From a virus, in the IMG/VR virus record IMGVR_UViG_3300031962_000007, positions 1-42,383 of that record: DNA of 42,383 nt; one strand, 5' to 3'. Numbering within the stretch: position 1 is the first letter of the stretch; the number at the start of each line of letters is the position of its first letter. This document shows, one piece after another, positions 2,030-42,383 of this stretch. The translations under genes were made by a program, and so were the position numbers. The notes below the pieces were generated by a model. The model did no database searches. It was not told the origin of the DNA and was given only the letters and a program-made list of their open reading frames with translations.

Positions 2030-3094
2030 TTACTCATAAGAAATAGTTAAATCCCACGCACCCGTAGAAACAATTGTCAAGCCTACGTTGAACGGTACGT
2101 TATATTTTAATGTCGTCAATTGCAAGCCACTAGAAGAAGTGATGATACCTATAACTGTTCCCGAACCTGCCGTGTTGTCATAAATCGTAATAGTGCTGGT
2201 TGCTACAGCGGTCGTGTTTACTGTAATAGAATGCAACTTTCCAGGCGTATTCTTAAGAATGGTAGTTGCAGCAGTTGTTATATGGCCGAACTTAGTTTCT
2301 GTGACAATATTTCCTAGCCGTAGTATAGACACCTCAAGTGCCTGCAAGGTGGTATTGGTAGCACCGCCTCCGGTATTATTGTTCTGCAGAGTCGACGGAA
2401 GGTCTAAAATTTGAGACTTTGGAAAAAGAAAAGGCGTTTCAACAGTGTCGATTTGGTGAACTAAAGAATTGTCAATATAAAAATCGATGGACGCGAACGA
2501 ATACACAATTTCCCAAACATGATAGTTGCCGTCCAAAACAAAAGAATTGCTAACATTCCAACTAGTCTCGGCTACCGCCGTATCAGAAGAGGCGGCACGC
2601 GTAACGATATTTAGCGTTGTGCCAGTCAACTGGAAAAACATGCCATTGGTGGCGTTGAAGGCTCCCCAATTCCGCGTATTATTGGCGGTTCCCGTATCTC
2701 CTACCTTCAGAACAGCGTGGTAAACATTTTCGCAACCGGCAACAAATATGCCAACATCAACGCTTTGGTATTGCGCTGTAGAATTTGCCGTCGTACCCGT
2801 AGAGAGCTGAATGCGCCCAGCATTCTGCAAAACTGTAGCACTGCCTGTTACAGTCTCCGTCCAAAAGTTCGTGTCCTTTGCTCCAGCGAAAGAAGTACCC
2901 ACAAGGCGCACGAGAGAGCTAGTACGTAGGCTATGGACCTTGCTTACCCAAGATTGAGAGTCCGTAAAAGGATCAGTCGGCACAATGTACAACGCGCCAC
3001 TTTCGGCCACCGAACCAGTGTTAGAGGGAGTGACAGCATCGGTGAGAACTACTTGCGTCGCACCTTCATCCGAGCCTATGGGAGCATCAGCCAT
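2030..3094 (-). CDS. Putative virion/fibre protein with lectin-like middle domain
   Basis: 354 residues beginning MADAPIGSDEG. After a short acidic N-terminus there is a beta-rich middle part (about residues 80-240) with features like HVWEIVYSFASIDFYIDN, which looks like a concanavalin/LamG-type jelly roll in which a thin-film or surface ligand is bound. The last 90 residues (TITIYDNTAGSGTVIG, YNVPFNVGLTIVSTGAWDL) form a beta-rich C-terminal module common in phage structural proteins. A receptor-binding or capsid surface protein is the likeliest role. The domain assignment is by pattern only. Confidence 0.6.
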   Translation of the reverse strand: MADAPIGSDEGATQVVLTDAVTPSNTGSVAESGALYIVPTDPFTDSQSWVSKVHSLRTSSLVRLVGTSFAGAKDTNFWTETVTGSATVLQNAGRIQLSTGTTANSTAQYQSVDVGIFVAGCENVYHAVLKVGDTGTANNTRNWGAFNATNGMFFQLTGTTLNIVTRAASSDTAVAETSWNVSNSFVLDGNYHVWEIVYSFASIDFYIDNSLVHQIDTVETPFLFPKSQILDLPSTLQNNNTGGGATNTTLQALEVSILRLGNIVTETKFGHITTAATTILKNTPGKLHSITVNTTAVATSTITIYDNTAGSGTVIGIITSSSGLQLTTLKYNVPFNVGLTIVSTGAWDLTISYE

Positions 3095-4801: not shown

Positions 4802-5800
4802 CTAGACAGCGATTACTTCTTCGAGTATTAGCGTAGAAACTTCTCCATTATTAAGGTTCATGTAAAGATTGCCGCCGTTTCGAGCTTGAGCATATACTTC
4901 ATAGACATGAGATGCAGTATCCGCAGGATGATGAACAATATCAATAGCAATTGATACCCCAAAATCTGCCGGAGTAGCAATGTTGACAGTTCCATTGTGT
5001 GACAAAGAAAAACCAAAAGTAGCGTCGCCAATATTAACTCCATCCTTAAATATTGTCCAATCGCCATTTAAGCAGTCTACGTCTAAAAAAGCATTGCCAG
5101 TAAATTTAATATGAACGAGATGGGCCGCGTCGCTCAGTGCAATTGCTTTAGATAAACCTGTAGTAACGAAAGTTGTTGAAGTAGTGTGAAACTGAGTATT
5201 TGATTGAGCATAAGCAATAGTCGGAGTATTACCTGCCCCGCTGGCCGCAGCTGTAATACGCCCGTTCGCATCTACCGTTATATTAGCCGATGTATAAGAA
5301 CCAGGAGTAACGGCCGTGTTTATAAGATCGAGAGCAGGAGTAGTTCCGCCGGTGGAGGAGATATTACCAGCAGTACCAGATACGCTTATGACTTTACTAT
5401 TGAGCTGAGTTTGAATTGCGGAAGTAACTCCAGAAAGATAATTTACTTCGGTTGCGCTCGCTCCACCGCCAACGATGAAGCCAGAACCGTCTGACACCAT
5501 TACTGTATCGCTTGGCTGCGTAGCTAGTTTGGTAAACGCAATTGCGGCACTTGTGCTAATTTGCGTGTTTGTAATCGTACCAGAGGCAATTTTGGTCGCA
5601 GTAATCGCGCCCGTTGAGATAGTTGCCACTTGACTTCCAGTGCCTGGACCAGCTGCCACGTCGCCAGTAAGCCGATTTATACCTCCGTCAGCCACAAGGG
5701 TGAGCGGCGTCCATGCCGGACTTCCCCCTCCGAATCCTTCTAGTCCTTGGGTTACTTGGTTGTATCTTAGATTGTTTATACTTTTGTCATTGTCTGCCAT
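4802..5800 (-). CDS. Tail-fibre-like protein
   Basis: 332 residues beginning MADNDKSINNLRYNQ. Residues about 70-200 carry repeat-like phrases common in phage fibre proteins (GAITATKIASGTITNTQIS; EVNYLSGVTSAIQTQLNSK; then ITVDANGRITAAASG), consistent with a trimeric beta-structured shaft. The C-terminal 130 residues look like a separate globular head. A host-recognition or surface fibre role is likely. The gene is more AT-rich than portal or terminase, suggesting separate acquisition. It lies between portal and scaffold rather than in the tail cluster, which is unusual for a tail fibre. Confidence 0.65.
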   Translation of the reverse strand: MADNDKSINNLRYNQVTQGLEGFGGGSPAWTPLTLVADGGINRLTGDVAAGPGTGSQVATISTGAITATKIASGTITNTQISTSAAIAFTKLATQPSDTVMVSDGSGFIVGGGASATEVNYLSGVTSAIQTQLNSKVISVSGTAGNISSTGGTTPALDLINTAVTPGSYTSANITVDANGRITAAASGAGNTPTIAYAQSNTQFHTTSTTFVTTGLSKAIALSDAAHLVHIKFTGNAFLDVDCLNGDWTIFKDGVNIGDATFGFSLSHNGTVNIATPADFGVSIAIDIVHHPADTASHVYEVYAQARNGGNLYMNLNNGEVSTLILEEVIAV

Positions 5801-5825
5801 TTTATTCTCCTTGGTTTATTTGGTA

Positions 5826-6206
5826 CTAGCTATTCACTACACTTGGCGGAGGAACAACTGTCACGTCGTCGTAGTCCGCATTGTTTCTGGCATTCATGGT
5901 GACTGTAAGGTTCATTCCGAAACTAGAGGCCGTGTATAAAATCTTGTAGTAGCGACTGAACACGGGGTTAAGGTGCCAGATCGTCGTGCCCGCCATAGTG
6001 ATGCTGACAGTCAGGCCCGAAACGGCCACGAAGTTCTGGCCGTCCACCGATTCGTAGACCGCGAGCGTTCCGGTCCCGCCGCCTACGGGCGCGTACGTGG
6101 CCGACAACGACAAGATATCGATGGTACTGAGGTCTAAGACGACGCCGGTCGTGGTCGTCTGGTTTAGGACGCTTATTACGGCTCTATTATCTGCGATTAG
6201 GGACAT
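5826..6206 (-). CDS. Small beta-rich virion protein
   Basis: 126 residues beginning MSLIADNRAVISVLN. The alternating hydrophobic pattern (TLAVYESVDGQNFVAVSG, YYKILYTASSFGMNLTVTM) reads as a single immunoglobulin-like or jelly-roll beta sandwich ending in a Pro/Val tail. It sits directly after portal in the transcript with 15 bases between. It could be a head-decoration or fibre base protein. It has no enzyme motif. Confidence 0.55.
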   Translation of the reverse strand: MSLIADNRAVISVLNQTTTTGVVLDLSTIDILSLSATYAPVGGGTGTLAVYESVDGQNFVAVSGLTVSITMAGTTIWHLNPVFSRYYKILYTASSFGMNLTVTMNARNNADYDDVTVVPPPSVVNS

Positions 6207-6221
6207 GTTTGGGCTCCTTGG

Positions 6222-8318
6222 TTATTTTTTGGGCGGCGCGGCGTTGCCCATCTGCGATGCGGCAGCCGTCACCATCGGTGGCGTTGCCTTGGGTAAAATC
6301 GGTGCTCGCGGCGGCTTTATGGCCCCCGCCGCCTGCGCCAACGGCGGTGCGGCATTCGTCACCGGCGCGGCCCCTGCTGGCATGGGATTCGCCACGGGTC
6401 CTGGCGTCGGCTGTTCCGGCATGGGTGCTCCTGGGGGCGGCCCCTGGACGTTATTGCCCATCAATGCCATCAAGCGCGGGTCGTCAAGGGACTGGATTCC
6501 TGGGAATAAAAATTGGGCATGGGTCATATTGTGCTGAATAACCGCCGCCATAACGGGATCGTTCTGCTTCTGTCGCAATGCGGGGTCCATCATAATCACA
6601 AAATGCTGCTGGATATGATTCGCGTGGTTGTCCCAAGGCGAGGCTATTTGCGGCAAGCCACGCCGAAGTTGCTCGTTCTCTTTTATGATGAGCATGTTCT
6701 CGGCCTCTGGTCCCTCCGTCATGGGATCGAGTTGGCCCGTCTCAAGCACCTCGAAATATTGGTTGGCGTCCTTTATGAGGCCCTTCGCCATCAAGTCCTG
6801 CGCGATCTGTAGCTTGCCCGCCTCCGAGCGCGTCGCTGGATTTCCAGCCGACACGATCACGCGGGAGATGTTGGACAGGTCCGCGCCGGAGAACTCACCC
6901 ATGTACGGCGACTTGCTCGCGCCCGCTATAGTAATCATGCGCTTCGTGTTGGCGAAGCTCTTTAGCATGTTAAAAAGTCCTGTGGCCGAGCGTTCAAGAA
7001 AACTGATATATGCCTGTTGAATAGGTGAATTGAATACCAACGCTTGAGCCTGGAGAAAGGCCATGGCAGTACCAGATTCAACACCAGTTGGCGGTTGGCC
7101 GCGCAAAATTGAAGGAAGGCCACTTAATTTCTCCATTTGACTCTCTAGAATGTCAAGGAACTTAAAGACTTCGGCGGGTGTTTTGCATAACTCTAAACCA
7201 ACTGGCACACCATTCTTCATGTTTGTCTTGATAAAATTCAAGCCCTCGATCACCTGCTCTGGTTTTGTCTGGGTAGACTCGTCGATTACGATGTTGGTGA
7301 TGGCAAAGGCTTGCTGATTGGTCACGATAACGCTTAGCGTCTTGTCGTAGGCGTACTGTAGCTTGACCAGGGAGGTCATCACAGTGCTGCCAAAATTGTT
7401 GAAGAGCGTCTGGTCCGGCATCATCGGGTAAAGCGGAATCTCGTCGTATGGGAGCGCGGTGTCGAGAATCCACGTGTCCGCGTCTATGTACTGGGTGATG
7501 CGCCCCTCTGGGCAGGCGGCGGTCTTCCTGTGGATGAACGTATAAACTGGAATCAGGTCCGAGTTGGATGTCTGGGCGTCCACGATGTGACCGAAGCGGA
7601 AGCGTTGAAGGGTAGTGGGCATAGAGTAACCCTTAAGCTCGTCCAGCAAGTCTGGCCGCTGGGCGATTAGATCCCATTTGTTGAGATACTCGCGAACAAT
7701 ATACCAGTCGTTGTCCACATCCATGCGCGTGTAGTCTCGGATTACGTCCATGGGGCCTAGAATAGCGTATTGAAAGTCTCCCTCCTTTACTGGCACCTGC
7801 TTGCCGGAAGGGTCGGACATCACGTCCACGATCTGGCCGATGTCCGCGTTCCACTTCTCAAACATCCATCCCTCGCCCGTAACAAGCCCGTAGGTGAGGG
7901 CCATCTTGTAGGCGTCTTCCATGTGCTTAACTTTCAAGTAGTAGTTGCTTACGGAGTCAAAGATGATGTCCTGTGACATACTCTTATGGTCATCATTTAT
8001 GGCCTCTGGTTGGAAGGAAGGCCGTTGATTCGCTATCGTGCTCACAAGGCCAGTGACGATAGAACGATAAATGTTGGATTCAATAAGCTTGTACTGCCCA
8101 CGATCTCCGCCGAAGCGGATGCCGATTTTCATCTCGGAACGCATCCACATTTCCCAATTGGTGCGCCACGTGGTCAGCTTGCCGGTACGGAGGGCATAAT
8201 CTTGGTAGTCGTTGACCCGCCGCTCACACTCCGGCAATAAGTCTTCAACGGGCAACGTGGCGAAATATTGATCCGGCTCGCCGCCGAACGTCTTCGAGTT
8301 CATTGAACCACTGGCCAT
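6222..8318 (-). CDS. Portal protein
   Basis: 698 residues. It lies directly downstream of the large terminase with one small gene between, the standard place for portal, the dodecameric head vertex through which DNA enters and leaves. The N-terminal third has the usual portal flavour (ERRVNDYQDYALRTGKLTTW, ...GLVSTIANQRPSFQPEA, LTYGLVTGEGWMFEKW), with mixed alpha/beta wing and stem regions after it. The last 100 residues are Pro/Ala/Met-rich and probably disordered. The length fits long podovirus portals. The ATG overlaps the previous stop (TAATG). I did not see a fused protease or other extra domain. Confidence 0.88.
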   Translation of the reverse strand: MASGSMNSKTFGGEPDQYFATLPVEDLLPECERRVNDYQDYALRTGKLTTWRTNWEMWMRSEMKIGIRFGGDRGQYKLIESNIYRSIVTGLVSTIANQRPSFQPEAINDDHKSMSQDIIFDSVSNYYLKVKHMEDAYKMALTYGLVTGEGWMFEKWNADIGQIVDVMSDPSGKQVPVKEGDFQYAILGPMDVIRDYTRMDVDNDWYIVREYLNKWDLIAQRPDLLDELKGYSMPTTLQRFRFGHIVDAQTSNSDLIPVYTFIHRKTAACPEGRITQYIDADTWILDTALPYDEIPLYPMMPDQTLFNNFGSTVMTSLVKLQYAYDKTLSVIVTNQQAFAITNIVIDESTQTKPEQVIEGLNFIKTNMKNGVPVGLELCKTPAEVFKFLDILESQMEKLSGLPSILRGQPPTGVESGTAMAFLQAQALVFNSPIQQAYISFLERSATGLFNMLKSFANTKRMITIAGASKSPYMGEFSGADLSNISRVIVSAGNPATRSEAGKLQIAQDLMAKGLIKDANQYFEVLETGQLDPMTEGPEAENMLIIKENEQLRRGLPQIASPWDNHANHIQQHFVIMMDPALRQKQNDPVMAAVIQHNMTHAQFLFPGIQSLDDPRLMALMGNNVQGPPPGAPMPEQPTPGPVANPMPAGAAPVTNAAPPLAQAAGAIKPPRAPILPKATPPMVTAAASQMGNAAPPKK

Positions 8319-8482
8319 TATTTCGCTCCGTTTTCTTTTTGTTTATATTCGATTAATATCCGGCTGTAGATTCTACGGCAACAATCCTTGCAACCGTCTA
8401 GGTGGTGAAGGAACGCTGCAAAATCGTCTGCCGTATGGTCCCCGCGTTTTACTTTTTCGCAATAAGGATTGTCGCTAGTCAT
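8318..8482 (-). CDS. Small zinc-finger-like protein between terminase and portal
   Basis: A 54-residue frame (MTSDNPYCEKVKRG...) fits exactly between terminase and portal: it overlaps the terminase end by 8 bases and its stop overlaps the portal ATG as TAATG. It contains FLHHLDGCKDCCRRIY, an H-x3-C-x2-C pattern like the zf-HC2 (anti-sigma type) zinc finger, plus an N-terminal Cys. It may bind zinc and act as a small regulator or packaging accessory. The zinc motif is seen; the role is unknown. Confidence 0.6.
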   Translation of the reverse strand: MTSDNPYCEKVKRGDHTADDFAAFLHHLDGCKDCCRRIYSRILIEYKQKENGAK

Positions 8483-9947
8483 AGCTTTCATCATGTTCTT
8501 CGCGGTTAAATTCCTGGCCCATTGCGGCGTCTAACCCCGCACTAATAATCTCTGCTGTCTGCGCTTTGTCGCCCTCCAGCAATTTCTTAGGGATGAACGT
8601 GTTCTCCTCATTGTGCCTAAAGCTTGGCGGAAGCGGATTAGTGAGGAGGTCAACGCTTCGCACAAGGTACATAAGCATTGCGAATCCGTCATAATGGCCA
8701 AATGTCTTGGAGCGGGAGAACTCCTTGCCACGGGCACCCCCCTTTGTCTTGGTCCACACGCCATTCTTCAGGCATCCGAGCGTCTGCACACACTTCGGGC
8801 TCACGATCACGCGCCCTTCCTTCACTAGCTCACGAACATCCGACACCATCACATCCAGATAGGTCTTGCTCTCCACGGGAGAGAAGTAGAGATGATGCCT
8901 TAGATTAAAATCCTGGAGAAGGGACGGCGTGTTATTGTCCGCGATCCTCTTCTTTATCTCCGCATCTGCGAACACTTCCTTTTCCTTAGCAATAATTCGC
9001 TCGGCTAAAAGGTCGGTGGTTTGTTCGGGTGACTTCATACAAACCTCGTCCCGAAGAACGATCGCAGATTTTCCGCCAGCCCATTCAACACTGGCAAACC
9101 CGCATACGGAGTTATCGGTCCATCCCTGGTCCAGCGCGTCATACTTAAACCAGAACTTGAAATTGTCATTCCTTGGAACTTCTCTCTCGTACTCCGGCCT
9201 CCACTCTGGGCAGAGCTGGAAGTCCGTATCGATAACGAACTCACAGAAGAACTCCCTCCGCACCTTGTGGGAGGTGATCCCGCCGAGGTCCTTTATGAAC
9301 TTCTCCTGCCGCTCCAGCGGGTAGTGGCTATCGCGGATGGTGAGCTTCATGTAGGCCCCGTCTATCTCGGCCTGGTCGCAATAGCCCTTGAAGGCGTGGT
9401 CCGGCGTGACCGGCGGCGTTGAAAGCAGGAGCATGTTTCCGTTGCGTGGAATGAGCGTTGAAACCAGCGCACCATCGACAATTTCGTCTAGATTCGCCGA
9501 GAATCCTGCCTCATCGAGGATAATTAGGTCAAAAGCGAATGACCGTAAATTATTGTAGGAAGTACCAACGCCCTTCCCCACGCCACGGAAAAGAATCTTG
9601 GAGCCGTTCTGAAACTTTATCTGAGTCTTGTTTAGCCTAGGCTTAAGGTGCTCTGGGCACGTGGCGAACACCACATCGTAGAGCTGCCGCACGTACTCCT
9701 GCACGTCGTCCACGGTGGGGGCTATGAAGGCCACGAGGGCGTTCTTCTTGGCTATGCACGTCTCCGCGCAAAGGAACAGGCCGAGCACGCTCTTTCCGAT
9801 CTTGCGGCTGCAGTTGACGACGAACTTGGAATTACGCCCCGTGCTCGCCTTGAAGGCATCGTATATCTTACGCTGGGACGGGTTGAGGTGTACGTACAGC
9901 CGCCCTATCTGCCAGGACGCTTCAATTGCCTTCTCGGCATCGGTCAT
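8475..9947 (-). CDS. terL: Terminase large subunit
   Basis: 490 residues, the normal length. It powers DNA packaging into the prohead and cuts the concatemer. A Walker A-like motif SRKIGKS lies at residues 47-53, and Walker B with the catalytic Glu, LIILDEAG, at 141-148, followed by a coupling-type LLLSTPP. The C-terminal half contains acidic residues suited to the RNase H-fold nuclease (KYDALDQGW near residue 272, and FGHYDGFAM near 430). The ATG comes right after the stop of the upstream Cys-rich gene (TGATATG). Packaging type (cos or headful) cannot be told from the sequence alone. Confidence 0.92.
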   Translation of the reverse strand: MTDAEKAIEASWQIGRLYVHLNPSQRKIYDAFKASTGRNSKFVVNCSRKIGKSVLGLFLCAETCIAKKNALVAFIAPTVDDVQEYVRQLYDVVFATCPEHLKPRLNKTQIKFQNGSKILFRGVGKGVGTSYNNLRSFAFDLIILDEAGFSANLDEIVDGALVSTLIPRNGNMLLLSTPPVTPDHAFKGYCDQAEIDGAYMKLTIRDSHYPLERQEKFIKDLGGITSHKVRREFFCEFVIDTDFQLCPEWRPEYEREVPRNDNFKFWFKYDALDQGWTDNSVCGFASVEWAGGKSAIVLRDEVCMKSPEQTTDLLAERIIAKEKEVFADAEIKKRIADNNTPSLLQDFNLRHHLYFSPVESKTYLDVMVSDVRELVKEGRVIVSPKCVQTLGCLKNGVWTKTKGGARGKEFSRSKTFGHYDGFAMLMYLVRSVDLLTNPLPPSFRHNEENTFIPKKLLEGDKAQTAEIISAGLDAAMGQEFNREEHDESYD

Positions 9948-13514: not shown

Positions 13515-13772
13515 ATGAACCTTAACCCAATCAAAGCGAACATGACCGAGCTACAACTCAACGATTGGTTTGTGCTTTTCAGCTACAAAACGCCCGTAGC
13601 GGCTATCGATAGAAGCACCGGCAAGGCGTTCAAGACCGCGAAGCATTGGAGTCGCACGACCTCTAAACACATTAACCAGTATTTCCTTGACGTGTTGCAC
13701 GCGCCGAATGGGGCGACTATCGAGGAGAAGCCGCAAGAGTGGTTTGATAGCATCACTGTGGGGGTGAAATAA
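13515..13772 (+). CDS. Small conserved phage protein (LFSYKTPVA motif)
   Basis: 85 residues with a strong AAGGAG site. NDWFVLFSYKTPVAAIDR and KHWSRTTSKHINQYF match a widespread family of short phage proteins of unknown function in which a VLFSYxTPVA strand is followed by a W-S-x-T-T-x-x-H-I-N motif. No catalytic residues are known for the family. It is encoded one base before the next gene. Confidence 0.7.
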   Translation: MNLNPIKANMTELQLNDWFVLFSYKTPVAAIDRSTGKAFKTAKHWSRTTSKHINQYFLDVLHAPNGATIEEKPQEWFDSITVGVK

Positions 13773-13773
13773 C

Positions 13774-14226
13774 ATGAGAATTCAAGAAACGAAAGTCTAT
13801 AAATTTGATGAGCTATCCGACGATGCAAAAGATAAAGCGCGTGCATGGTATCTAGAAGGCGCATTCGATTATGATTGGTATCAGTATATTTATGAAGATG
13901 CTAGTCGCATTGGTCTACGTATAACTGAATTCGACGTAGATCGAAACACTATCGTCGGTGAGCTGGAAACTACAGTTAACGAAATAGCAGCAAACATTCG
14001 CCAAGAGCATGGAAAAAGCTGCGATACCTATAAGCTTGCCCTATCTGTCGATAGACGCAAGCCTAACGATAGCGATGAGGTAGTTAGCGAATTCAAACAC
14101 GCATTGCTTGAGGAATACCTTGTAATGCTTCGCAAAGAAGCGGAATACATTCAGAGCAATGAGGCAGTAGACGAGAATATTAAAGCGAATGAGTATGAAT
14201 TCACAGAAAGTGGTGAACGCGCATGA
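13774..14226 (+). CDS. Conserved phage protein, unknown (antitoxin-like N-terminus)
   Basis: 150 residues beginning MRIQETKVYKFDELSDDAKDK. The N-terminal YKFDELSDDAKDKARAWY and C-terminal DENIKANEYEFTESG are features of a common phage protein family of unknown function. It is acidic and mostly helical, with no membrane segment. It could be a small inhibitor or DNA-mimic, but no evidence fixes this. Overlaps the next gene by ATGA. Confidence 0.65.
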   Translation: MRIQETKVYKFDELSDDAKDKARAWYLEGAFDYDWYQYIYEDASRIGLRITEFDVDRNTIVGELETTVNEIAANIRQEHGKSCDTYKLALSVDRRKPNDSDEVVSEFKHALLEEYLVMLRKEAEYIQSNEAVDENIKANEYEFTESGERA

Positions 14227-14468
14227 AAACCATTAATACAGGACTACGGGCATTGACCACGAGCAAGGAACGGGCCGAGATTCGAGCAATTGGCGTCAAG
14301 CGGCAAGTCAGACTAGTGTACAAGGGCCAGATGAAGTGGTCCAGGAAGTACGGGATAGACTCCCGCATGTGGGACGTAGTGCTGCCCATCCTGCCTAGGT
14401 ACGACTACTCGTCCGGCGGCTATCCGACGTTCACCATTGAAGGGCTAAAGGAAAGGAAGCTAATCTAA
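14223..14468 (+). CDS. Small basic protein, unknown
   Basis: 81 residues, ATGA start overlap and TAATG end overlap with neighbours. Basic N-terminal half (TTSKERAEIRAIGVKRQVR) followed by a Tyr/Pro-rich C-terminal half (LPILPRYDYSSGGYPTF). No known motif. Early-operon accessory gene. Confidence 0.55.
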   Translation: MKTINTGLRALTTSKERAEIRAIGVKRQVRLVYKGQMKWSRKYGIDSRMWDVVLPILPRYDYSSGGYPTFTIEGLKERKLI

Positions 14469-14680
14469 TGTTCTACTCTCAAAGACTAACGAAGCAACAA
14501 ACGGAAAACTTGTGCGTGCGGTGCGAAACGAAGTTCGACCGGTGGTCTACGTACCACCAACATGTGCTAAGCAACGATTGCAAGTTGGCCATAAAGCCTT
14601 TGAACACGAGCGGTCGGAGCAAAGAGGAAATAGTAAAGAGCTGGGAATCCCAGCAGAAACAAGGAGCTATAATCCGATGA
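14468..14680 (+). CDS. Small zinc-finger-like protein
   Basis: 70 residues. CVRCETKFDRWSTYHQHVLS followed by a Cys four residues on (C-x2-C ... H-x2-H ... C) resembles a single C2H2-type zinc finger, so DNA or RNA binding is possible. The C-terminal part is helical and basic. It overlaps the next gene's start by 4 bases. Function is inferred only from the motif. Confidence 0.55.
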   Translation: MFYSQRLTKQQTENLCVRCETKFDRWSTYHQHVLSNDCKLAIKPLNTSGRSKEEIVKSWESQQKQGAIIR

Positions 14681-15177
14681 AAAAAGCGATAATTATTAGC
14701 GTCGTTTTGTTCGCCATTCCCGCCTTGGGGCTGGCGACTAACGAAGGAAACGGAAATGGCAACGGAGGACCGGAAGGCAATGAAGGAATCATAGGACCGC
14801 AAGGACCTACGGGCCCGCAAGGACAGCCAGGGCCAAACGGTAGCAACGGAGCTAACGGCGTGAACGGACCTATCGGCGTCAACGGAAAAGACGGAAAGAA
14901 CGGAATCGACGCGAGCACGCAATTCAAGGGCACGGACTTGGCTCTCGACGCGGCGGTGAGAATCATCGACGTGAAGTATCTGCAGGTGCAAGCGTTCGAC
15001 ACATACGTGTTCGGCTCTACGCCAGGTTCGGACGTGTTTGGGCAAGGGCACAACTCGACGATAGGTGCGAGGATAGTAATAAAGCTAGGGAAGAGTTACG
15101 AGGAACGTTTGCTTGAAAAGCAGGCCTTAGAACTGAAAGCTCTTGAGGCTCGCCTATCATTGTTGGGAATGAAATAG
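14677..15177 (+). CDS. Secreted collagen-like protein
   Basis: 166 residues from an ATG with AAGGAG upstream. Residues 1-20 (MKKAIIISVVLFAIPALGLA) are a good signal peptide with an Ala cleavage site. Then comes an Asn/Gly-rich part and a run of about 12 Gly-X-Y triplets (GPQGPTGPQGQPGPNGSNGA and on), a collagen-like triple-helix segment. The C-terminal 90 residues form a globular or coiled part ending in a helix (LEKQALELKALEARLSLLG). Collagen repeats are frequent in phage fibres, but a signal peptide is unusual; export to the periplasm or cell surface is predicted. It lies in the early operon. Confidence 0.7.
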   Translation: MKKAIIISVVLFAIPALGLATNEGNGNGNGGPEGNEGIIGPQGPTGPQGQPGPNGSNGANGVNGPIGVNGKDGKNGIDASTQFKGTDLALDAAVRIIDVKYLQVQAFDTYVFGSTPGSDVFGQGHNSTIGARIVIKLGKSYEERLLEKQALELKALEARLSLLGMK

Positions 15178-16197: not shown

Positions 16198-16540
16198 GGA
16201 GCGAGATATAGCTTTCGGGCTTCATTCCAATATCCCACGTTGTTGTATTGATTTTTTCGTCAATGAATGGGACTGCACACGCGAGACTTTACACTCACGC
16301 GCAATCGATATAGCATGTCCACGGTGGAATTATGTTCCATGCCCTATTTGCCTAAAGAAAAATAACAAAGTCCGCATACGCGAATGTATAATAGAATGCG
16401 GGCGAGAGTGTTGGAAGTATTTTGACGAAAGGGGGCACTATGATAGCGGAACTTCTACTTTTGGGAACGCTCCAAGCAACGGCATATCGAGCAACGCCAG
16501 AGCAAACAAAGCCCACATGCAAAAATCGTCATGCATGTGA
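16190..16540 (+). CDS. Cys-rich protein, unknown
   Basis: 116 residues from ATG 16190 overlapping the previous gene. RCCIDFFVNEW, CPRWNYVPCPICLKKN and ECIIECGRECW give more than eight Cys, suggesting a zinc- or iron-sulfur-binding protein. The last third (about 33 codons) overlaps the following 3D-domain gene in another frame and looks less protein-like, so this tail may be under little constraint. Function unknown. Confidence 0.5.
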   Translation: MSRERDIAFGLHSNIPRCCIDFFVNEWDCTRETLHSRAIDIACPRWNYVPCPICLKKNNKVRIRECIIECGRECWKYFDERGHYDSGTSTFGNAPSNGISSNARANKAHMQKSSCM

Positions 16541-16808
16541 GACAAGTATCGGCGAAAATGTTTCAGAGCTTGGCGTTGCTGTTAGCCCCGATCTTTTGGC
16601 TAGTGGTAGAGTGCATTATCGTGATTGTCTCTATATTTCTGGGATTGGTTTTAGGATTGTTAACGATACCACCAATAAGCGTTTACATAACGCTGTTGAT
16701 GTATTCGTATATGAAAAGGGCGAAGAGAGACGATTCGGAATACGACATTTGAAAGTGTGGCTGATAAAGCCGCCAGACAAAACAAAAATCGCCGAGGAGG
16801 AAAAATGA
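16440..16808 (+). CDS. 3D-domain protein (lytic-transglycosylase-like fold), secreted
   Basis: 122 residues from ATG 16440 with GGGGG upstream. The first 18 residues (MIAELLLLGTLQATAYRA) look like a signal or anchor segment and include the TAY often found at the start of 3D proteins. The rest matches the 3D (Asp-Asp-Asp) domain: LGVAVSPDLLASG, then RIVNDTTNKRLHNAVDVFV with Asp-76 and Asp-87, then RRFGIRHLKVWL. These domains have the double-psi barrel of MltA-like peptidoglycan enzymes, so cell-wall action is plausible. One conserved Asp/Gly position appears altered (NDTTN rather than DTGG), so activity is uncertain. It may be a lysis or entry factor. Confidence 0.65.
   Translation: MIAELLLLGTLQATAYRATPEQTKPTCKNRHACETSIGENVSELGVAVSPDLLASGRVHYRDCLYISGIGFRIVNDTTNKRLHNAVDVFVYEKGEERRFGIRHLKVWLIKPPDKTKIAEEEK
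16558..16752 (+). CDS. Hydrophobic frame nested in the 3D-domain gene (uncertain)
   Basis: A 64-residue frame (MFQSLALLLAPIFWLVVECI...) lies wholly inside the 3D-domain gene in another frame. It would give two membrane segments and a charged tail (KRAKRDDSEYDI), the shape of a small holin. No good ribosome site is present (CGGCGAAA before the ATG). It may be a frame artefact of a T-rich gene or a genuine embedded gene. Confidence 0.25.
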   Translation: MFQSLALLLAPIFWLVVECIIVIVSIFLGLVLGLLTIPPISVYITLLMYSYMKRAKRDDSEYDI

Positions 16809-17195: not shown

Positions 17196-17659
17196 GGGGC
17201 CGTGTGGGTATATCGGGAAAGACAAATATGAATGACCGACACTTTGTAAAAAAGCAGAAGTTAAAAGAAATTAGCGGCTCAAGCGGGGCATATGAGCAAT
17301 GGATGGAGGGGCACAAAGGTTCCCGTTCCAAAGGATATAGACGCAAAGACGGGCTAGACGAGCGTTTTGGACGCATTACCGAGGACGTACTAGCCAATCC
17401 CGATAGCCTACAAGAGAGCGAGGCGATGTACGCCAATGACCAGCCCTCCAATCCGCACTTCATCTTGGGGGAAGCGGTGGAGCATTTGCAAGGACGACAA
17501 CGAGAGGTCTATTTGTTGACTATGCGGGAGGAGAAGTCGCTTGCAGAGGCCGCCCAAGTGCTCGGAATCGCGAAAGGCACCGCGCAAAAGTACCAGGAAC
17601 GGGCCATAAAATTTATCGAGAGCTATTGTAAGCAAGCAATAAATCGGGGGCGTGTATAA
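17192..17659 (+). CDS. Sigma-70 region 4-like transcription regulator
   Basis: 155 residues (or 143 from an internal ATG at 17228). Residues about 95-143 form a sigma region 4-type helix-turn-helix: LQGRQREVYLLTMREEKSL, then EAAQVLGIAKGTAQKYQER. The N-terminal 90 residues lack sigma region 2, so it is more like an ArpU or positive-control factor than a complete sigma factor. It may switch on late genes by binding host RNA polymerase or DNA; no phage RNA polymerase was found in the window, which would make such a factor useful. Confidence 0.7.
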   Translation: MRGRVGISGKTNMNDRHFVKKQKLKEISGSSGAYEQWMEGHKGSRSKGYRRKDGLDERFGRITEDVLANPDSLQESEAMYANDQPSNPHFILGEAVEHLQGRQREVYLLTMREEKSLAEAAQVLGIAKGTAQKYQERAIKFIESYCKQAINRGRV

Positions 17660-17871
17660 TGGGCGACAAAATAAAGCAGATTTGGTCGTATATTCAAGAC
17701 CTTGCGGATGTACGAGGGGATACCATAATGGCAGCTATGTCGGCTGTTTTCATAGTGCGCGTGGCAGCATCCGCATTCGCAAAATTTCCGCCGTTGACAG
17801 CGAGCGAGGCGGCGTTCTACGCATCAGCCATCGGTTCCTTCGCCTATAGCAATCGAGGGCCAAAAGCGTGA
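17659..17871 (+). CDS. Small membrane protein
   Basis: 70 residues. After an N-terminal amphipathic part, residues about 22-40 (TIMAAMSAVFIVRVAASAFA) form a membrane segment, with a second weaker one near the end. TAATG overlap with the previous gene. It is the first of three consecutive membrane-type genes, so a holin-like role is possible. Confidence 0.5.
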   Translation: MGDKIKQIWSYIQDLADVRGDTIMAAMSAVFIVRVAASAFAKFPPLTASEAAFYASAIGSFAYSNRGPKA

Positions 17872-17996
17872 TAACTATGTTCGCTATGATCGCCGGAGCA
17901 CTTACCTCGGCGGCATGGGTTGCACCACAGCCACAATGTTATATCTACGCGGTAATCGCTAGTGTATTCTTTGTCATAGTGCGGAGGGCACAATGA
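17868..17996 (+). CDS. Very small membrane protein, GTG start
   Basis: 42 residues from a GTG overlapping the previous stop (GTGA), with GAGG nine bases upstream; an ATG at 17877 is an alternative. Two short hydrophobic stretches (MFAMIAGALTSAAW and YAVIASVFFVIVRR) fit a hairpin of two membrane helices. It overlaps the next gene's ATG by 4 bases. Function unknown. Confidence 0.45.
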   Translation: MITMFAMIAGALTSAAWVAPQPQCYIYAVIASVFFVIVRRAQ

Positions 17997-18511
17997 CATT
18001 CTCGGATCATTTCAAGCATTTCCTAACGGCCATTTGCACGGCCATTGTTTTCCTTGTGGCTGGATGGTTTGGCCTACGCCATATCGTCGCCGGTCAGCCA
18101 CAAGGCGTTGTTCTCAGGCCCCAGGACAAGGAGCGCGTGTCCTACAATTCGACCTCCCATATCCTTACCGTCACTACCGACAAGGGCACGACAAGATCAT
18201 ACACGCGCAATCTCAACATCCTCGTCGAGAAGAATGGGACGGTCATAATCAAGAAGCGTCTTGTAGGCTTCGAGCGGGCTCCGTTCATGGCCATAGGGGC
18301 ATCATTCGATGGCTTGTCACTGAAGAGGAATGGCTACCTAGGATTAAACTTAGTGGAACTTTGGCGATTCGATATCGGTCCCGCTCTTGCAATAGGCGAG
18401 ATCGGCGTTAGGCCGTTGGCGCAAATTCAATACAATTTCTACTCCAACACGAGCATCATGGTTGGTTGGTGGTTTGGTGCTTACCATGCTGCCATAGGCG
18501 TTAAGTTCTAG
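17993..18511 (+). CDS. Membrane-anchored phage protein with beta-rich domain
   Basis: 172 residues. An N-terminal membrane segment at about residues 10-28 (FLTAICTAIVFLVAGWFGL) is followed by a Thr/Ser-rich periplasmic-type part (SHILTVTTDKGTTRSYTRN) and an extended beta/Gly-rich C-terminal half (NGYLGLNLVELWRFDIGPA). No lytic motif. Third member of the membrane-gene run. A spanin-like or anchoring role is possible but not shown. Confidence 0.55.
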   Translation: MTFSDHFKHFLTAICTAIVFLVAGWFGLRHIVAGQPQGVVLRPQDKERVSYNSTSHILTVTTDKGTTRSYTRNLNILVEKNGTVIIKKRLVGFERAPFMAIGASFDGLSLKRNGYLGLNLVELWRFDIGPALAIGEIGVRPLAQIQYNFYSNTSIMVGWWFGAYHAAIGVKF

Positions 18512-18526
18512 AAAGGATGGCTATAT

Positions 18527-19144
18527 ATGCAAATTGATCGGCAATGGCTAGAACGCCAATGTGCATGTCCTGAAGGTAAAGAATTCTTCTTGGCGGAGGG
18601 GATTCTTCTTTTAGATGCTGGCACGCGTAATTTAATAAAAAAAGAAAAGCTTGAGTGGGCAAATTGGCTTGTAACACGCGCAATGAACCATACGCAAAAA
18701 GTGCTTTATGGAGTGTACGCTGCAAAACAAGTTTTACGACTATATGAGAATATCTATCCAAAAGATCATCGCCCCCGTAATGCGATTCAAGCTGCTTTAC
18801 GATTCGTAAAAAATCCAACTAAAGAAAATGAAGAGACGGCTTACGCGGCTTACGCGGCGGCTAACGCGGCGGCTAACGCGGCGGCTTACGCGGCTAACGC
18901 GGCGGCTTACGCGGCGGCTTACGCGGCTTACGCGGCGGCTAACGCGGCGGCTTACGCGGCTTACGCGGCGGCTAACGCGGCGGCTAACGCGGCTTACGCG
19001 GCGGCTAACGCGGCGGCTAACGCGGCTTACGCGGCTTACGCGGCGGCTTACGCGGCTAACGCGGCGATGAAAACGAAGATCATTTTGTATGGACTTCGAT
19101 TAATTAAAAAGGAGAATAAATCATATGTCAAGAGTGATTGCTGA
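18527..19144 (+). CDS. Ala-rich repeat protein with Tyr/Asn-Ala-Ala units
   Basis: 205 residues. The N-terminal 100 residues form a globular domain (CACPEGKEFFLAEGIL; LEWANWLVTRAMNH) resembling putative-immunity-type proteins with an Ala repeat tail. From about residue 105 to 180 the chain consists almost only of [Y/N]-A-A and [Y/N]-A-A-A units, then a short Lys-rich tail. The repeat would form one long Ala helix or solenoid. Weak ribosome site (AAGGATGG before the ATG). The last 20 bases overlap the next gene. Role unknown. Confidence 0.65.
   Translation: MQIDRQWLERQCACPEGKEFFLAEGILLLDAGTRNLIKKEKLEWANWLVTRAMNHTQKVLYGVYAAKQVLRLYENIYPKDHRPRNAIQAALRFVKNPTKENEETAYAAYAAANAAANAAAYAANAAAYAAAYAAYAAANAAAYAAYAAANAAANAAYAAANAAANAAYAAYAAAYAANAAMKTKIILYGLRLIKKENKSYVKSDC
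18838..19066 (+). repeat. Tandem 9/12-base repeats inside the Ala-rich gene
   Basis: About 230 bases built of GCGGCTTAC and GCGGCTAAC units with extra GCG codons. The pattern is irregular (9- and 12-base spacing), keeps frame throughout and encodes Ala with Tyr or Asn alternating. It has the look of slippage-generated expansion. No start or stop in the repeat interrupts the 205-residue protein. Confidence 0.85.
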
Positions 19145-27295: not shown

Positions 27296-27679
27296 ATGAC
27301 AGTTTGTCATCCGAAGCGAAAGCATTATGCAAAAGGTCAATGTGTTCGATGCTGGCGACGAGATTATTATGGAACGCCGGAATGGCAACAGAAGAAAGCA
27401 CAGTGGCAAAGTAGTTCTTATAGAGCCCATAGAACTTTTCATCTCGAAAAAAGTAAACTCTATCATGTCTGGAAAGCCTATGGAATAGACTTAGGCGACT
27501 ATTTTGCCTTACTAGCCGAGGGTTGTCAAATTTGTGGCAATCAAGCAATGGTTATTGACCATAGCCATAAAACAGGTAAAGTAAGAGGCGGTCTTTGTAA
27601 GCAATGTAATACAGGTTTAGGGATGTTTCGGGATAATCCAAAATTACTAAAAAGAGCAGGAGCGTATCTTGGATTATAA
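27296..27679 (+). CDS. Endonuclease VII-like HNH nuclease next to DNA polymerase
   Basis: 127 residues. N-terminal CHPKRKHYAKGQCVRCWRRD is a basic zinc module; CQICGNQAMVIDHSHKTGKV and CKQCNTGLGMFRDNP form the endonuclease VII-type core with DH-x-H and two CxxC zinc ligands. The gene is AT-rich and its last 11 bases overlap the polymerase start. It acts as a mobile homing-type gene or a resolvase; in T4 the family resolves branched DNA. Confidence 0.8.
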   Translation: MTVCHPKRKHYAKGQCVRCWRRDYYGTPEWQQKKAQWQSSSYRAHRTFHLEKSKLYHVWKAYGIDLGDYFALLAEGCQICGNQAMVIDHSHKTGKVRGGLCKQCNTGLGMFRDNPKLLKRAGAYLGL

Positions 27680-31586: not shown

Positions 31587-31702
31587 ACTTATTGGTGCTT
31601 GTTGGGGTAGTTTGCGTCGTTGTTGGAGTCGTGAAAGGCTTGGGTTGGCTAGGCGGTGGACTAGCATTGCTTGTGTTGGGTACTATGATTGAGTTCTGGT
31701 AA
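31583..31702 (+). CDS. Very small membrane protein
   Basis: 39 residues, almost all hydrophobic (MNLLVLVGVVCVVVGVVKGL then GGGLALLVLGTMIEFW), giving two short membrane helices. ATGA overlap with the gene before. It directly precedes the membrane-anchored protease. Coding is plausible. Confidence 0.5.
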   Translation: MNLLVLVGVVCVVVGVVKGLGWLGGGLALLVLGTMIEFW

Positions 31703-31715
31703 AAAGGAGAGAAAA

Positions 31716-32468
31716 ATGAGACGCCTTATCCGCACACTCGCTACTTTAGGCCTATTGAGCCTCGGAATTTGGGGTTGGAAAAGAGAGGAAGGATTTAAAC
31801 CACGGGTTAAAGTTCCTGTGACCCGCTATCACGGCTATGAATTAAATCGTGAAGCCATCAATCGCGCCAAAGCCTTCACTGTTCTCATTAGCAACGAAGG
31901 ATTTGGTAGTGTAGGCCGAGGGACCGGCGTTCTTATTGATCCTACCCACGTTCTTACGTGCGCTCATATGGTGGAAAGTTCGCAAGACGACATGTGGATT
32001 TATCCCTATCCAATAGGTATAGTAGTAAAAGGAAAACCAATACTTGTCAATAGCGGCGTTGATCTTGCCGTTCTTGAGCTTAGTAGCGCGGTTGTGATCG
32101 CGCATTACGCCGTATTTCAGGACATGCACTATGACGGCGAGCCCATAACCATAGTGGGAAATATTCTAGGCTCAATGAAATGGTTTGTCAGTTTTGGAAT
32201 CATAAGCGGAGACTTTCAAGGCTATCTTTTGACGGATGGTTTAATCCATGGAGGAAATAGCGGCGGCCCTTGGATCAACGAGCGAGGGGAAGTAGTGGCT
32301 ATAACTTCATGGGGCTTGCAGAACCGAAAGGACGAGGAGTTGGGAGTTAGCGGAGGAGTGTCAGCGAGCACTATTCATGAGTTTTTGAGGACATGGAAGT
32401 CTCCTTCAATCGGCCAAATATTGCGGATGATCTTGGGCGGTAACAGCATCAAAAAGGGGGACAAATGA
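31716..32468 (+). CDS. Membrane-anchored trypsin-like serine protease
   Basis: 250 residues from ATG 31716 with AAAGGAG upstream. Residues 1-25 form a basic N-terminus and hydrophobic segment (IRTLATLGLLSLGIWGW), a signal anchor. The S1 catalytic triad is complete: His in LTCAHMV (residue 84), Asp in GVDLAVLEL (116) and Ser in HGGNSGGPW (182). No PDZ domain follows, unlike DegP. It would act in the periplasm or at the membrane. It lies at the end of the early operon among membrane proteins and could degrade host factors or process phage proteins; this role is inference. Overlaps the next gene by ATGA. Confidence 0.82.
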   Translation: MRRLIRTLATLGLLSLGIWGWKREEGFKPRVKVPVTRYHGYELNREAINRAKAFTVLISNEGFGSVGRGTGVLIDPTHVLTCAHMVESSQDDMWIYPYPIGIVVKGKPILVNSGVDLAVLELSSAVVIAHYAVFQDMHYDGEPITIVGNILGSMKWFVSFGIISGDFQGYLLTDGLIHGGNSGGPWINERGEVVAITSWGLQNRKDEELGVSGGVSASTIHEFLRTWKSPSIGQILRMILGGNSIKKGDK

Positions 32469-35652: not shown

Positions 35653-38148
35653 TTACGGCTGAACCTGTAAGTTGGGGTCTAGTTGTTTGGCTTTTGACAG
35701 GTTGCCCGCCGGAATCCAGAGCGTCTGACCGTCCGAAGACTTTATGAGCACGTTGCCCTTGGCTCTGTTGAAGTAATTGTCTGCTAATTTTGATCCGCTG
35801 GCCTGTAGTTGTGCCGCGCTGGGCTTGATGCTGAGCACGGATGCGTTCTTTACTGCGTTGTCCACGTCAGTTGAGGCCTGCGCGTGCGCCTTCATATAGA
35901 GGTCCGCATCCTTCTCTTGCTTGGCCACCTGGGCCGACATCAGCTGGAAGTACGTGGGTAAGTCCTTCTTCATCGTGCCCTTGGGTGCCCCTATCATCTT
36001 GTTGAGGGTGTCATCAACGCCGTATGCGTCCGCAGCGGCAGCCTGCTTAAGGGCGTTATCACCCATTTGCGTCTGCAGTTGCAGCTTTTGAATTCTGTCC
36101 TGGCGAGCCTTGTCGAAGTTGGCTAGAGCCTCGTCCCGCTGAGTCTTTTCCATGGTGAATATGTTCTGCAGCGAATGCTGCTCCTTTCCGCCCTTGGCGG
36201 CGAGCGCGTCCCCGAGCCCAGAGACGGCCTGCGCGATGACCGCGCCTAGCCCGTGTTGCTGCTCCTGTAACTTGTCGGCCAGGGCTTGCCGGTCCTCGGG
36301 ATTGACCCCCTCGGTAAGCTTGGACGTGTCCTGGTTGAATATAGTGCCTAGATTTGGCATACCTGCGGTAGAGGCGACCGGCGTGGCCGCCGGAGCGGCT
36401 GGCTTTGGTAGCGGGGCCGCCGGAGGTACGACTGGCGGCATGGGTGGTGCCGCAACTAGAGCTGGAGGCGTTGCCGTCGCTCCAGGCAGATTGGTACCCA
36501 ACGCCGCATTGACGGCTGGCGCGATTCCTGGGGTCGCCGCTACGTTTGCCGCGCCTTCCGCGACGGCTGGCATCGTGGGCAAAGTTTTTCCAAGCGTGGT
36601 GCCGACTTGCGACAAAGCTGCCTTGATCTGGTCCCAGTATGTGGGGTCACTAGGGCTTGGCGAAGCCATACCGCCAGTGGTCACAGTACCATCGCTTGGT
36701 GTAACTCCACCGTCCGCGTACTGCTTAATTCCCATGGCTTTGTATATCGCACGCAGTTTCTCGTCACTAGGGGCCGCTAGCTTTGGCTTTTCTGGTTCCG
36801 CGTTGCGTCCCTCGGCCTTCTTCAGCGTTCCGCCTTCGGCCATAGTGATGGGCATCGTCGCCCCATCTTTCTGGACTTCCGCATCCCCGTGAGTCTTCAC
36901 CCTTTCCATATCCCCTTCTTTCGATGTGACCGTGGCTGGAAGGGCGACTTTGACGGTGTCGCCAACGTCGTCCTTGGCCATCTCGTCCGGCGTGCGTTTC
37001 AAGTGAAATTCGGTGTCCTTGGACACGATGGGCACGGACATGTGCGACTCGCGGTTGACGTGAACATCCCCGCCTGGCGCGTGCGGGACGGCTCCGCCCT
37101 TGGCCATATGTTTAGGATTCTCTTTTTCGCCCGTTTCCGTCATGTCTTTCTTTACGGATGGGTCCATTCCTTGTACATGTGTAACCTCTTTCACTTTACT
37201 TAGTGGTTCATTTTCTAGGAATGTAACGTGTGGATAGCCACCTTCTGCATAATTTTCATTTCGCCCAGTAGCGGCATTTCCTAGAGTTTTAGATGCTTCT
37301 TTTGTAAGATGAACATCTTTTTTAACTCCTGGAAATTTTTCGTTTTCTAGAAGGGTAACATGAGGATAGCCACCCATAGCCATTGCACGAGCCATCATAC
37401 CGTTTGGGACAGGATGGGCCAAAGAAGAGCGTTCCACTTTACCGCCCTCGGCAAATGGTTGAGGTTGAGTATTACTTGGTTCACGTTGTGTGGCTTCGGG
37501 AGACGTATAGCCGCCTTCAGCATAGGCATTAGGCGCAACCTGGCTAGGAACATTAATTTGCGCTGGTAGAATTCCTTTAGCTCTAAGGATATGCTCAGGA
37601 ACAGAACCAGGAGCTGCATCGCCAAATTCAGACTTCAAAAGCTCTGGCGGTCCTTTAACACCCCAAATTTTAACATCTCCGCTTGGGCTTTTTTGAATGC
37701 CCTTAAGAAAGGCTTCGATCTTTGGGGCAGCTGCTTCTGTCACCCCTTCCATTTTTGGAGCCGCTTTATTAAAAGCGGTTTTAATGGCAGGAGATACTTT
37801 ATAAGAGGCTTTTTTTGCCATTTCTAAAGCTTGCGCTGCTGTTTCATCTTCAGGTCCTAAAGTCATAGCACCTGTTTCACCTAAGCCTTCAAGAGTCATA
37901 GGCAAACTTTCGGCCAAACTTTTGGTAGCTGGGCCCAAAAGATAAGGGGCTAAAAAGTCTGAAACAGTTGTATCTTGTATACCTGGTTCATCCTGTATGC
38001 TCCCTCCCTCCGCCATATTCTTTCCGCCGCGCGGATGCGCGTTATGCAAAGCTGCGGCAACAGCTTGATCGTGAGGATGACCGCTTGCTTGCATCTCTTT
38101 TATATTATGGGCTATAATGTCAGGACTTTTGCCGGATTTAAGAGGCAT
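35653..38148 (-). CDS. Large internal-virion-like structural protein with AEGG repeats
   Basis: 831 residues from ATG 38148; an upstream extension would overlap the HNH gene. It begins MPLKSGKSPDIIAHNIKEMQ and ends its first module with PHDQAVAAALHNAHP, a small motif found in many phage structural proteins. There are repeated patches of AEGG (at about residues 45, 214, 238, 308, 347, 445 and later) and a doubled GGYPHVTxLENE phrase. The C-terminal 300 residues are Ala/Gln/Lys-rich and helical (QAVSGLGDALAAKGGKEQHS). Likely a partner of the 650- and 444-residue ejection proteins. The 5' third is AT-richer than the rest. Confidence 0.6.
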   Translation of the reverse strand: MPLKSGKSPDIIAHNIKEMQASGHPHDQAVAAALHNAHPRGGKNMAEGGSIQDEPGIQDTTVSDFLAPYLLGPATKSLAESLPMTLEGLGETGAMTLGPEDETAAQALEMAKKASYKVSPAIKTAFNKAAPKMEGVTEAAAPKIEAFLKGIQKSPSGDVKIWGVKGPPELLKSEFGDAAPGSVPEHILRAKGILPAQINVPSQVAPNAYAEGGYTSPEATQREPSNTQPQPFAEGGKVERSSLAHPVPNGMMARAMAMGGYPHVTLLENEKFPGVKKDVHLTKEASKTLGNAATGRNENYAEGGYPHVTFLENEPLSKVKEVTHVQGMDPSVKKDMTETGEKENPKHMAKGGAVPHAPGGDVHVNRESHMSVPIVSKDTEFHLKRTPDEMAKDDVGDTVKVALPATVTSKEGDMERVKTHGDAEVQKDGATMPITMAEGGTLKKAEGRNAEPEKPKLAAPSDEKLRAIYKAMGIKQYADGGVTPSDGTVTTGGMASPSPSDPTYWDQIKAALSQVGTTLGKTLPTMPAVAEGAANVAATPGIAPAVNAALGTNLPGATATPPALVAAPPMPPVVPPAAPLPKPAAPAATPVASTAGMPNLGTIFNQDTSKLTEGVNPEDRQALADKLQEQQHGLGAVIAQAVSGLGDALAAKGGKEQHSLQNIFTMEKTQRDEALANFDKARQDRIQKLQLQTQMGDNALKQAAAADAYGVDDTLNKMIGAPKGTMKKDLPTYFQLMSAQVAKQEKDADLYMKAHAQASTDVDNAVKNASVLSIKPSAAQLQASGSKLADNYFNRAKGNVLIKSSDGQTLWIPAGNLSKAKQLDPNLQVQP

Positions 38149-38551
38149 GATTTTTCTCCAAGTAGGAAATAGCAGACGATAGAAATATCTTAGAGTCTCT
38201 AAAGCACCCAATTCCTTGATTACATTTATCGCATAATAACCCTCTAACTTTATTAGTTCGATGGTCATGATCTACAGCAAGAGCCTTATTGCCATTTACT
38301 TTGTAGCATATAGCGCATAATCCTTTTTGACTTTCGAGAAGCCTATCATAGTCTGCCCTCGTTAAACCGTAAAATAGTTTTATTTTTGCGTACCGATCCA
38401 CTTCATATAATTTTTCAGGGTTATTCTTTTTCCATTGATTAGCACGAATCCCTGTGCACACCTTACAAGCACGGCTAGACAAAAAACGACCACCTATAAA
38501 AGTATCGTGGCCTTGTATACAGAATTGTTTTCGTTCTCCAAGAATAGGCAT
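38138..38551 (-). CDS. Endonuclease VII-like HNH nuclease between virion genes
   Basis: 137 residues. N-terminal RACKVCTGIRANQWKKN supplies a zinc pair, then CAICYKVNGNKALAVDHDHR and GLLCDKCNQGIGCFRDS form the endonuclease VII core. The gene starts in a TAATG overlap with the 444-residue gene and its stop overlaps the start of the 831-residue gene by 11 bases. It is AT-rich relative to most of the virion genes. A mobile homing-type gene is the best interpretation. Confidence 0.78.
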   Translation of the reverse strand: MPILGERKQFCIQGHDTFIGGRFLSSRACKVCTGIRANQWKKNNPEKLYEVDRYAKIKLFYGLTRADYDRLLESQKGLCAICYKVNGNKALAVDHDHRTNKVRGLLCDKCNQGIGCFRDSKIFLSSAISYLEKNHAS

Positions 38552-42192: not shown

Positions 42193-42194
42193 AT

Positions 42195-42383
42195 CTACTT
42201 GCTCCGAGTCGTAGTGTCGGCATAGACCACAACACACCCACCGTAGGTGAAGCCAACCATCGCTTGGCTTAAGCTTAATGAGATATTTAACCAGTGAGCC
42301 CGTCGAGCTGGCAATGGAATGTACGTACGTATGGACGATACGGCGAATGGGTCCACGCCACCCCAATACGCCTGCCCCCACTG
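42195..42383 (-). CDS. C-terminus of a virion protein, 5' end cut by the window edge
   Basis: A frame open from the right edge to a TAG at 42195 gives about 62 residues (QWGQAYWGGVDPFAVSSIRT..., ending YADTTTRSK), rich in aromatic and beta-forming residues. Position and composition fit the end of a tail-tube or head-completion protein in the same late operon. The other frame across this stretch is the extended HNH reading, which I reject. The identity cannot be fixed from the fragment. Confidence 0.45.
   Translation of the reverse strand, partial: QWGQAYWGGVDPFAVSSIRTYIPLPARRAHWLNISLSLSQAMVGFTYGGCVVVYADTTTRSK

Follow-up and report, generated by a model that had tools for sequence, protein, structure and literature searches.

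In the window, i.e., the whole analysed stretch of 42,383 nucleotides from a virus record, an ORF at 14677-15177 (+) was found to encode a collagen-like protein of 166 aa, predicted to be an exported fibre. Its tail is common to 25 further IMG/VR contigs. The ATG overlaps the stop codon of the preceding gene (14468-14680, +) as ATGA, and a ribosome-binding site, AAGGAG, was recognized at 14661-14666 (+), 10 nt upstream of the ATG. The preceding gene is small and zinc-finger-like (CxxC...H/C). Ahead of it, plus-strand ORFs starting at 13515, 13774, and 14223 occupy 13515-14468, beside the turn to the minus-strand genes. A gene of similar look was seen upstream of the fibre gene in 9 of the 18 loci read by eye, the window included. 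In L035, it continues into the fibre frame without a stop, and in L036 it overlaps a fibre remnant. The frame of the fibre gene is open further upstream to a GTG at 14512, and opposite-strand ORFs are also present; the reading used here is the one conserved in relatives.

The translated product begins with MKKAIIISVVLFAIPALGLA, and TNEGNG... follows the likely cut. The signal peptide was predicted at aa 1-20 (14677-14736, +) by inspection, i.e., from composition and homologues, with 75% identity to L106. It was accepted as a Sec signal on that basis, with a Lys-Lys start, a hydrophobic core of 10 residues with a mean Kyte-Doolittle value of 3.40, Gly-Leu-Ala before the likely 20/21 cut, and no lipobox. 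The collagen region was assigned to aa 28-78 (14758-14910, +). It has Gly at every third residue in 17 unbroken Gly-X-Y triplets, the last 14 of which are cleaner. The Pfam Collagen domain (PF01391) matched aa 28-77 with an E-value of 5.7e-7 and 29.7 bits, above the cut-off of 27.2. An earlier note on this DNA had described a collagen-like protein with a signal peptide, and both parts were recovered here, the signal peptide by inspection. In the Pfam scan of the protein (E up to 0.1), PF01391 was the only match, and the phage fibre domains PF08400 and PF06820 were not found. The C-terminus reads ...LSLLGMK, without an LPXTG wall anchor. A conserved non-collagen part of 87 aa, which the earlier note did not describe, makes up the tail at approximately aa 80-166 (14914-15174, +). 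It is predicted to comprise three beta strands, the motif KLGKSYEE, and a C-terminal helix.

The search of IMG/VR with the window protein gave 29 loci, 15 of which have the tail. The other 14 (L012-L016, L019, L021, and L023-L029) showed no tail by HMM and were omitted from the counts. By protein, tail-alignment, relative, and degenerate-DNA-pattern plus HMM searches together, the tail was found in a total of 25 IMG/VR contigs besides the window. These include four near-duplicate pairs and four partial contigs (L036, its near-copy L011, L108, and L115), which hold just part of the tail or of the gene. Tail model A3 added seven of the contigs (L102, L106, L108, L112, L115, L117, and L124). It matched in all of the 20 records given, many of which were rows used in building it. 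The window fibre, also a row of the model, has both the tail HMM match and the signal peptide.

The members share one layout, i.e., signal peptide, variable middle, and tail. The middle is collagen only in the window, L031, L032b, L033, L035, L060, L106, L112, and L124, and collagen with a coiled-coil-like part in L037, L041, L042 (read from its near-duplicate L107, also for the tree), L102, and L117. L040, L044, L046, L050, and L051 have a head and a coiled-coil-like part without collagen, and L032a has a coil-type middle. Because relatives replace the collagen while the signal peptide and tail stay, collagen is not the essential part. In a Pfam search of seven members at E up to 10, collagen was found in three, and the rest gave weak, assorted names, mostly of coiled-coil proteins. 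The heptad scan of the stalks gave core hydrophobic fractions of 0.62-0.88 with no control set, and thus was not used as proof of coiled coils. Two members in tandem were observed in each of L032 (6245-8264) and L060 (record G012, 109465-110521), which are viruses of 142-151 kb; in L032 the coil type precedes the collagen type. In L037, a short lipoprotein-like gene (6327-6515) was seen before the fibre gene, and a protein with one hydrophobic stretch (7797-8171) after it.

An export signal with a small-x-small cut was identified in 13 of 14 proteins, i.e., the window and 12 of 13 homologues; for the exception, L050, the start used lay too far upstream. In six relatives (L031, L032b, L033, L035, L060, and L112), two Cys residues spaced by 10 or 11 positions closely follow the predicted cut, which fits an oxidising compartment. 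The pair is absent from the window, L106, and L124. In the tail, strand 1 carries R-x-x-D, strand 2 has an aromatic and Asp-rich end, and strand 3 reads G-x-x-x-x-x-KLGxS[YW]E, followed by the helix. The strand-3 pattern fits all 22 tail sequences. AlphaFold models of the window tail and the L044 protein, of low confidence (mean pLDDT 61.9 and 56.5), both end in three strands and a helix. In Foldseek searches with these two models, nothing significant was found (best E 0.035, 0.32, and 0.037).

Outside IMG/VR, the tail was searched in several collections. By tblastn, neither the whole protein nor any of three fragments of the tail had a relative among INPHARED phages, with a single chance match at E 8. 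The tail was not found in GTDB species genomes by two pattern scans, a kind of scan that divergent copies can escape. None of the 29 stretches from the first scan was confirmed as a tail. The degenerate-pattern scan gave 27 stretches, the best of which (L088 and L065; HMM E 0.001 and 0.0015 over 32 and 23 residues, in short frames) were attributed to chance. Four of the 27 (L062, L071, L075, and L078) had suggested an Elusimicrobia host, and this lead was dropped since none matches the HMM at E up to 10. The host of the closest terminase in the phage collection, Silvanigrella, was likewise rejected as a host name, as 26.5% identity is too distant. Long viral proteins with KLGSSYED-like stretches were also rejected, with E of about 0.005-0.12 over about 22 residues. 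At the thresholds used, the tail had no match in Pfam or PDB (best E 0.64 in the PDB profile search), and the tail alone had no PHROG match at E up to 0.1. As far as searched, the distribution of the tail family is viral.

For the genome setting, the earlier note had placed the gene in an early operon opposite the virion genes. The strands agree with this. By hmmscan, the terminase (8475-9947) and portal (6222-8318) genes of the window were located on the minus strand. Exonuclease, primase, and DNA polymerase A genes are all on the plus strand. Virion and replication genes thus point apart, and the fibre gene begins about 1.2 kb past the first plus-strand ORF counted, at 13515. The search for homologues in relatives, which the earlier note had proposed, extended this, i.e., DNA polymerase A is on the fibre strand in 13 of the 13 records that have both, among 20 searched. 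These records are related, so the 13 cases are not independent events. Terminase was found by PHROG 2 in 9 of 20 records, a lower bound because this search missed the window's own terminase. It is opposite to the fibre in five of these (L035, L036, L046, L102, and L112) and on the fibre strand in four large genomes (G001, G002, G007, and G012). In the window, L044, and L106, direct comparison likewise puts terminase on the strand that does not carry the fibre. In records below 60 kb with terminase placed, it is opposite in all seven (the window, L035, L036, L044, L046, L106, and L112).

This arrangement supports expression of the fibre together with the replication genes. The word early would be a reading of position and strand, and timing is not readable from strand alone, because a peptidase-like gene (16422-16808, +) and small membrane proteins, possibly for lysis, share the direction. 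The 16422-16808 product had weak PHROG peptidase matches and no Pfam match, and presumably resembles a 3D-type domain. One small membrane protein is encoded downstream of the fibre at 17659-17871 (+). The promoter and terminator scan gave 5 promoter-like sites, versus 3.9 in shuffled sequences, and was thus uninformative.

Several other genes of the window were recorded as observations. The gene at 17993-18511 (+) encodes 172 aa, starting with a membrane helix; the C-terminus is beta-like, has Phe as its last residue, and by eye looks like that of an outer-membrane protein. Its relatives were found in L044, L033, and L112, and no match was obtained in Pfam, NCBIfam, PHROG, or INPHARED at the limits used. 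The product could be a spanin of a single protein that bridges the envelope and has no lipobox. Assignment to a known beta-strand spanin class found no support in passages of PMC6139136 and was dropped. A tandem array of an Ala/Asn/Tyr-rich repeat lies at 18845-19066 (+) within a 205-aa protein matching phrog_38757. The product of 31689-32468 (+) was predicted to be a trypsin-like protease (PF13365, E 3e-17); its N-terminal stretch is hydrophobic, and it may be exported. Three endonuclease VII-type genes, perhaps homing endonucleases, are scattered at 27296-27679 (+), 38138-38551 (-), and 41788-42381 (-).

The descent of the fibre gene was discordant with that of terminase. L044 shares 90% identity with the window in terminase, 92% in portal (over 185 aa), and 69% in primase. 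At the corresponding locus it has a head-type gene, and the fibres align over only 70 aa with 31% identity. In L106, terminase is 92% and fibre 51% identical to those of the window. L112 shows 29% in terminase, 69% in portal, and 46% in primase (over 252 aa), and its fibre has 62% identity over 128 aa and 56% end to end. In the tail tree, the window, L112, and L106 form one group (97/90), and L044 and L046 form another (99/99). The discordance of terminase and fibre, with the separate tail groups, indicates that the gene moved between phages or was replaced whole. The neighbours of the window and L044 also diverge, i.e., 38% identity in the zinc-finger-like gene and 37% in the 17993 gene. The plus-strand region therefore diverges fast in general, and a special arms race of the fibre gene is not isolated by these values. 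That phages exchange entire gene classes at a single locus is consistent with a part that faces a shifting target.

From these results, the best explanation is considered to be an exported trimeric fibre that would be expressed together with the replication genes and act in or outside the host envelope, with hindrance of rival phages as its likeliest, putative purpose. We put this reading as a whole at roughly 45%. An exported trimeric fibre of the envelope is in itself probable. The product would act as a homotrimer destined for the host cell envelope. The Sec signal peptide would carry the chain across the inner membrane and then be cut off. In collagens of bacteria and prophages, domains at the chain ends serve for trimerisation (PMC11162425 and PMC3368898). 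Since collagen needs three chains and terminal domains trimerise elsewhere, the tail is the natural candidate for a trimeriser. Its strands and helix would join three chains and nucleate the collagen triple helix, or the coiled coil or head and coil in relatives. Made with the replication genes, the fibre would be in place before virions are finished and would act outside the cytoplasm. As the likeliest mode, it is proposed to cover or occupy structures on the surface and so to reduce the adsorption of competing phages.

Surface exposure with hindrance of other phages is a tentative guess, with the odds against it. It is the best guess because the gene sits with the replication genes, its form is not fixed, and its class changes between close relatives. 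The earlier note had suggested export to the host surface. Export itself is reasonable from the signal peptide kept in divergent homologues and the Cys pair in several relatives, and arrival at the surface is the more speculative part. No surface anchor was identified, i.e., neither a lipobox nor a YadA anchor, so the fibre may stay periplasmic or be released. The outer membrane is an assumption about the host.

A rather unlikely alternative is a YadA-type mini-autotransporter, in which each of three chains would contribute its three amphipathic strands to a barrel within the outer membrane that presents the collagen or coiled-coil part. Its order of signal peptide, stalk, and short C-terminal beta domain is the order seen here, and also in L029, where a YadA anchor replaces the tail. 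L029 is a 217,605-base IMG/VR contig classed as viral, and the product of its gene at 5758-7515 (+) is 585 aa long and begins much like a signal peptide. It matches collagen (E 6.7e-14), the YadA stalk (1.2e-18), and the YadA anchor (5e-14), with no match to the tail model. By its domains, the L029 protein is a predicted collagen-bearing trimeric autotransporter with the same order of parts and a true anchor where the fibre family has its tail. Strand 3 of the tail is also in favour, since in all 22 sequences its Gly is invariant and one face is non-polar, the other face bearing Lys and mostly Arg/Lys. We take it to resemble the outer-membrane beta-signal, a weak fit because any amphipathic strand with Gly would fit. 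A phage-linked precedent exists in an Eib structure that a review tables under an enterobacterial phage (PMC7247746).

However, the YadA anchor (PF03895) was found in none of 12 records (E up to 1) and in none of seven members (E up to 10). As controls, 6 of 14 control genomes match at E up to 1, one of them over the cut-off, and L029 was positive at E 5e-14. Because L029 was matched by PF03895, the model would have seen a YadA anchor in the fibre family; L029 supports the analogy, yet also shows that an anchor would be detectable. Moreover, the two low-confidence models give three strands per chain, whereas YadA-type anchors have four (PMC7247746), and the chain continues into a helix past the last strand. 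We know of no precedent for a nine-strand barrel. The anchor test speaks against an autotransporter, which is kept as an analogy. A virus-specific outer-membrane-inserted trimeric fibre, with a three-strand-per-chain anchor in place of YadA's four and interchangeable collagen, coiled-coil, and head modules that re-coat the host early against competing phages, is a doubtful extension.

It is similarly improbable that the fibre is a periplasmic lysis or envelope factor, which spans or props the periplasm and aids envelope disruption with the possible lysis genes 1-3 kb downstream. The downstream plus-strand genes at 16422-16808, 17659-17871, and 17993-18511 are in line with this, and relatives of several of them lie 3' of the fibre in L044, L046, L106, and L033. 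In the loci of large genomes that were read, however, the neighbours of the fibre differ from those of the window. The mature fibre also has no inner-membrane anchor or lipobox, unlike spanins (PMC6139136).

A virion component, i.e., a tail or capsid fibre with an incidental N-terminal hydrophobic stretch or one added during egress, is quite unlikely. Many PHROG matches of the window protein (best 25 of 45) are tail fibres, all over the collagen repeats. Module swapping is typical of receptor-binding fibres, and YadA-domain proteins were detected in cyanophage virions by mass spectrometry (PMC9146016). Against this, a cleavable-type signal peptide is kept across divergent members, and the gene runs in the direction of DNA polymerase and, in the small genomes where terminase was located, against that of terminase. 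Other virion candidates lie among the minus-strand genes, e.g., 4802-5800 (minor tail match) and 2030-3094 (virion structural match). Host-fitness cargo, an adhesin altering clumping or attachment of infected or lysogenic cells, would follow bacterial collagen-like surface adhesins such as Legionella Lcl (PMC11162425) and is very unlikely. No lysogeny gene was seen among the window proteins scanned (part of the ORFs), and the GTDB pattern scans gave no family member in bacterial species, so long-term expression in lysogens is unsupported.

The predicted exported fibre has meaning in several respects. A phage collagen is easily filed as a tail fibre from its repeats alone, whereas here both the export signal and the conserved tail contradict that label. 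The window protein is a natural collagen of very small size that includes a candidate domain for trimerisation and would be easy to express. A fibre that reached the host surface would amount to a phage-made coat, modular and exchangeable, during infection and would allow a ready test of rival exclusion.

Compared with known systems, small exported proteins acting at the outer membrane include T5 Llp and T1 Cor, the superinfection-exclusion lipoproteins of phages. The fibre family differs from them, as no lipobox was found in any of 14 family sequences. The family resembles E. coli O157 prophage collagens (EPclA and kin) in being phage-encoded collagen with a C-terminal trimerisation domain, here a candidate one, though those bear the phage fibre domains PfN/PfC (PMC3368898), none of which matched in the window protein. 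A 170-aa PHROG family annotated with unknown function, phrog_29809, is of similar length and matched aa 41-106 with E 3e-5, past the collagen and into the first strand; this match was obtained with the full protein, unlike the tail alone. As in Legionella Lcl (NF046116), an exported collagen-type trimer is predicted with a C-terminal domain that may start folding. Lcl differs in its N-terminal helix and DUF1566 C-terminal region (PMC11162425), in place of the three-strand KLGxSYEE tail. NCBIfam matches of the window protein cover the collagen repeats and stop by aa 85, far under the cut-offs, i.e., 25.5 bits of 500 over aa 18-85 for Lcl, 28.9 of 325 for streptococcal SclB, and 23.3 of 400 for SclA, so that it belongs to neither group.

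Trimeric autotransporter adhesins (YadA and Eib; PF03895) share the signal peptide, the modular stalk or head, and the C-terminal beta domain, and differ in having the YadA anchor and four strands rather than three predicted ones. The FGG insertions of autotransporter stalks have three antiparallel strands (PMC7247746), as in the predicted tail, a likeness of topology only, since no sequence or fold match was found. Titles and abstract openings of open-licence literature on phage collagen-like proteins and phage-encoded trimeric autotransporters gave no description of such a family. The kind of protein has precedents as exported trimeric fibre, collagen adhesin, and phage-linked autotransporter, and its combination of parts and its tail are absent from the libraries searched. 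The relatives with different middles at the same place point to an undescribed, putative family of virus-made fibres of the cell envelope.
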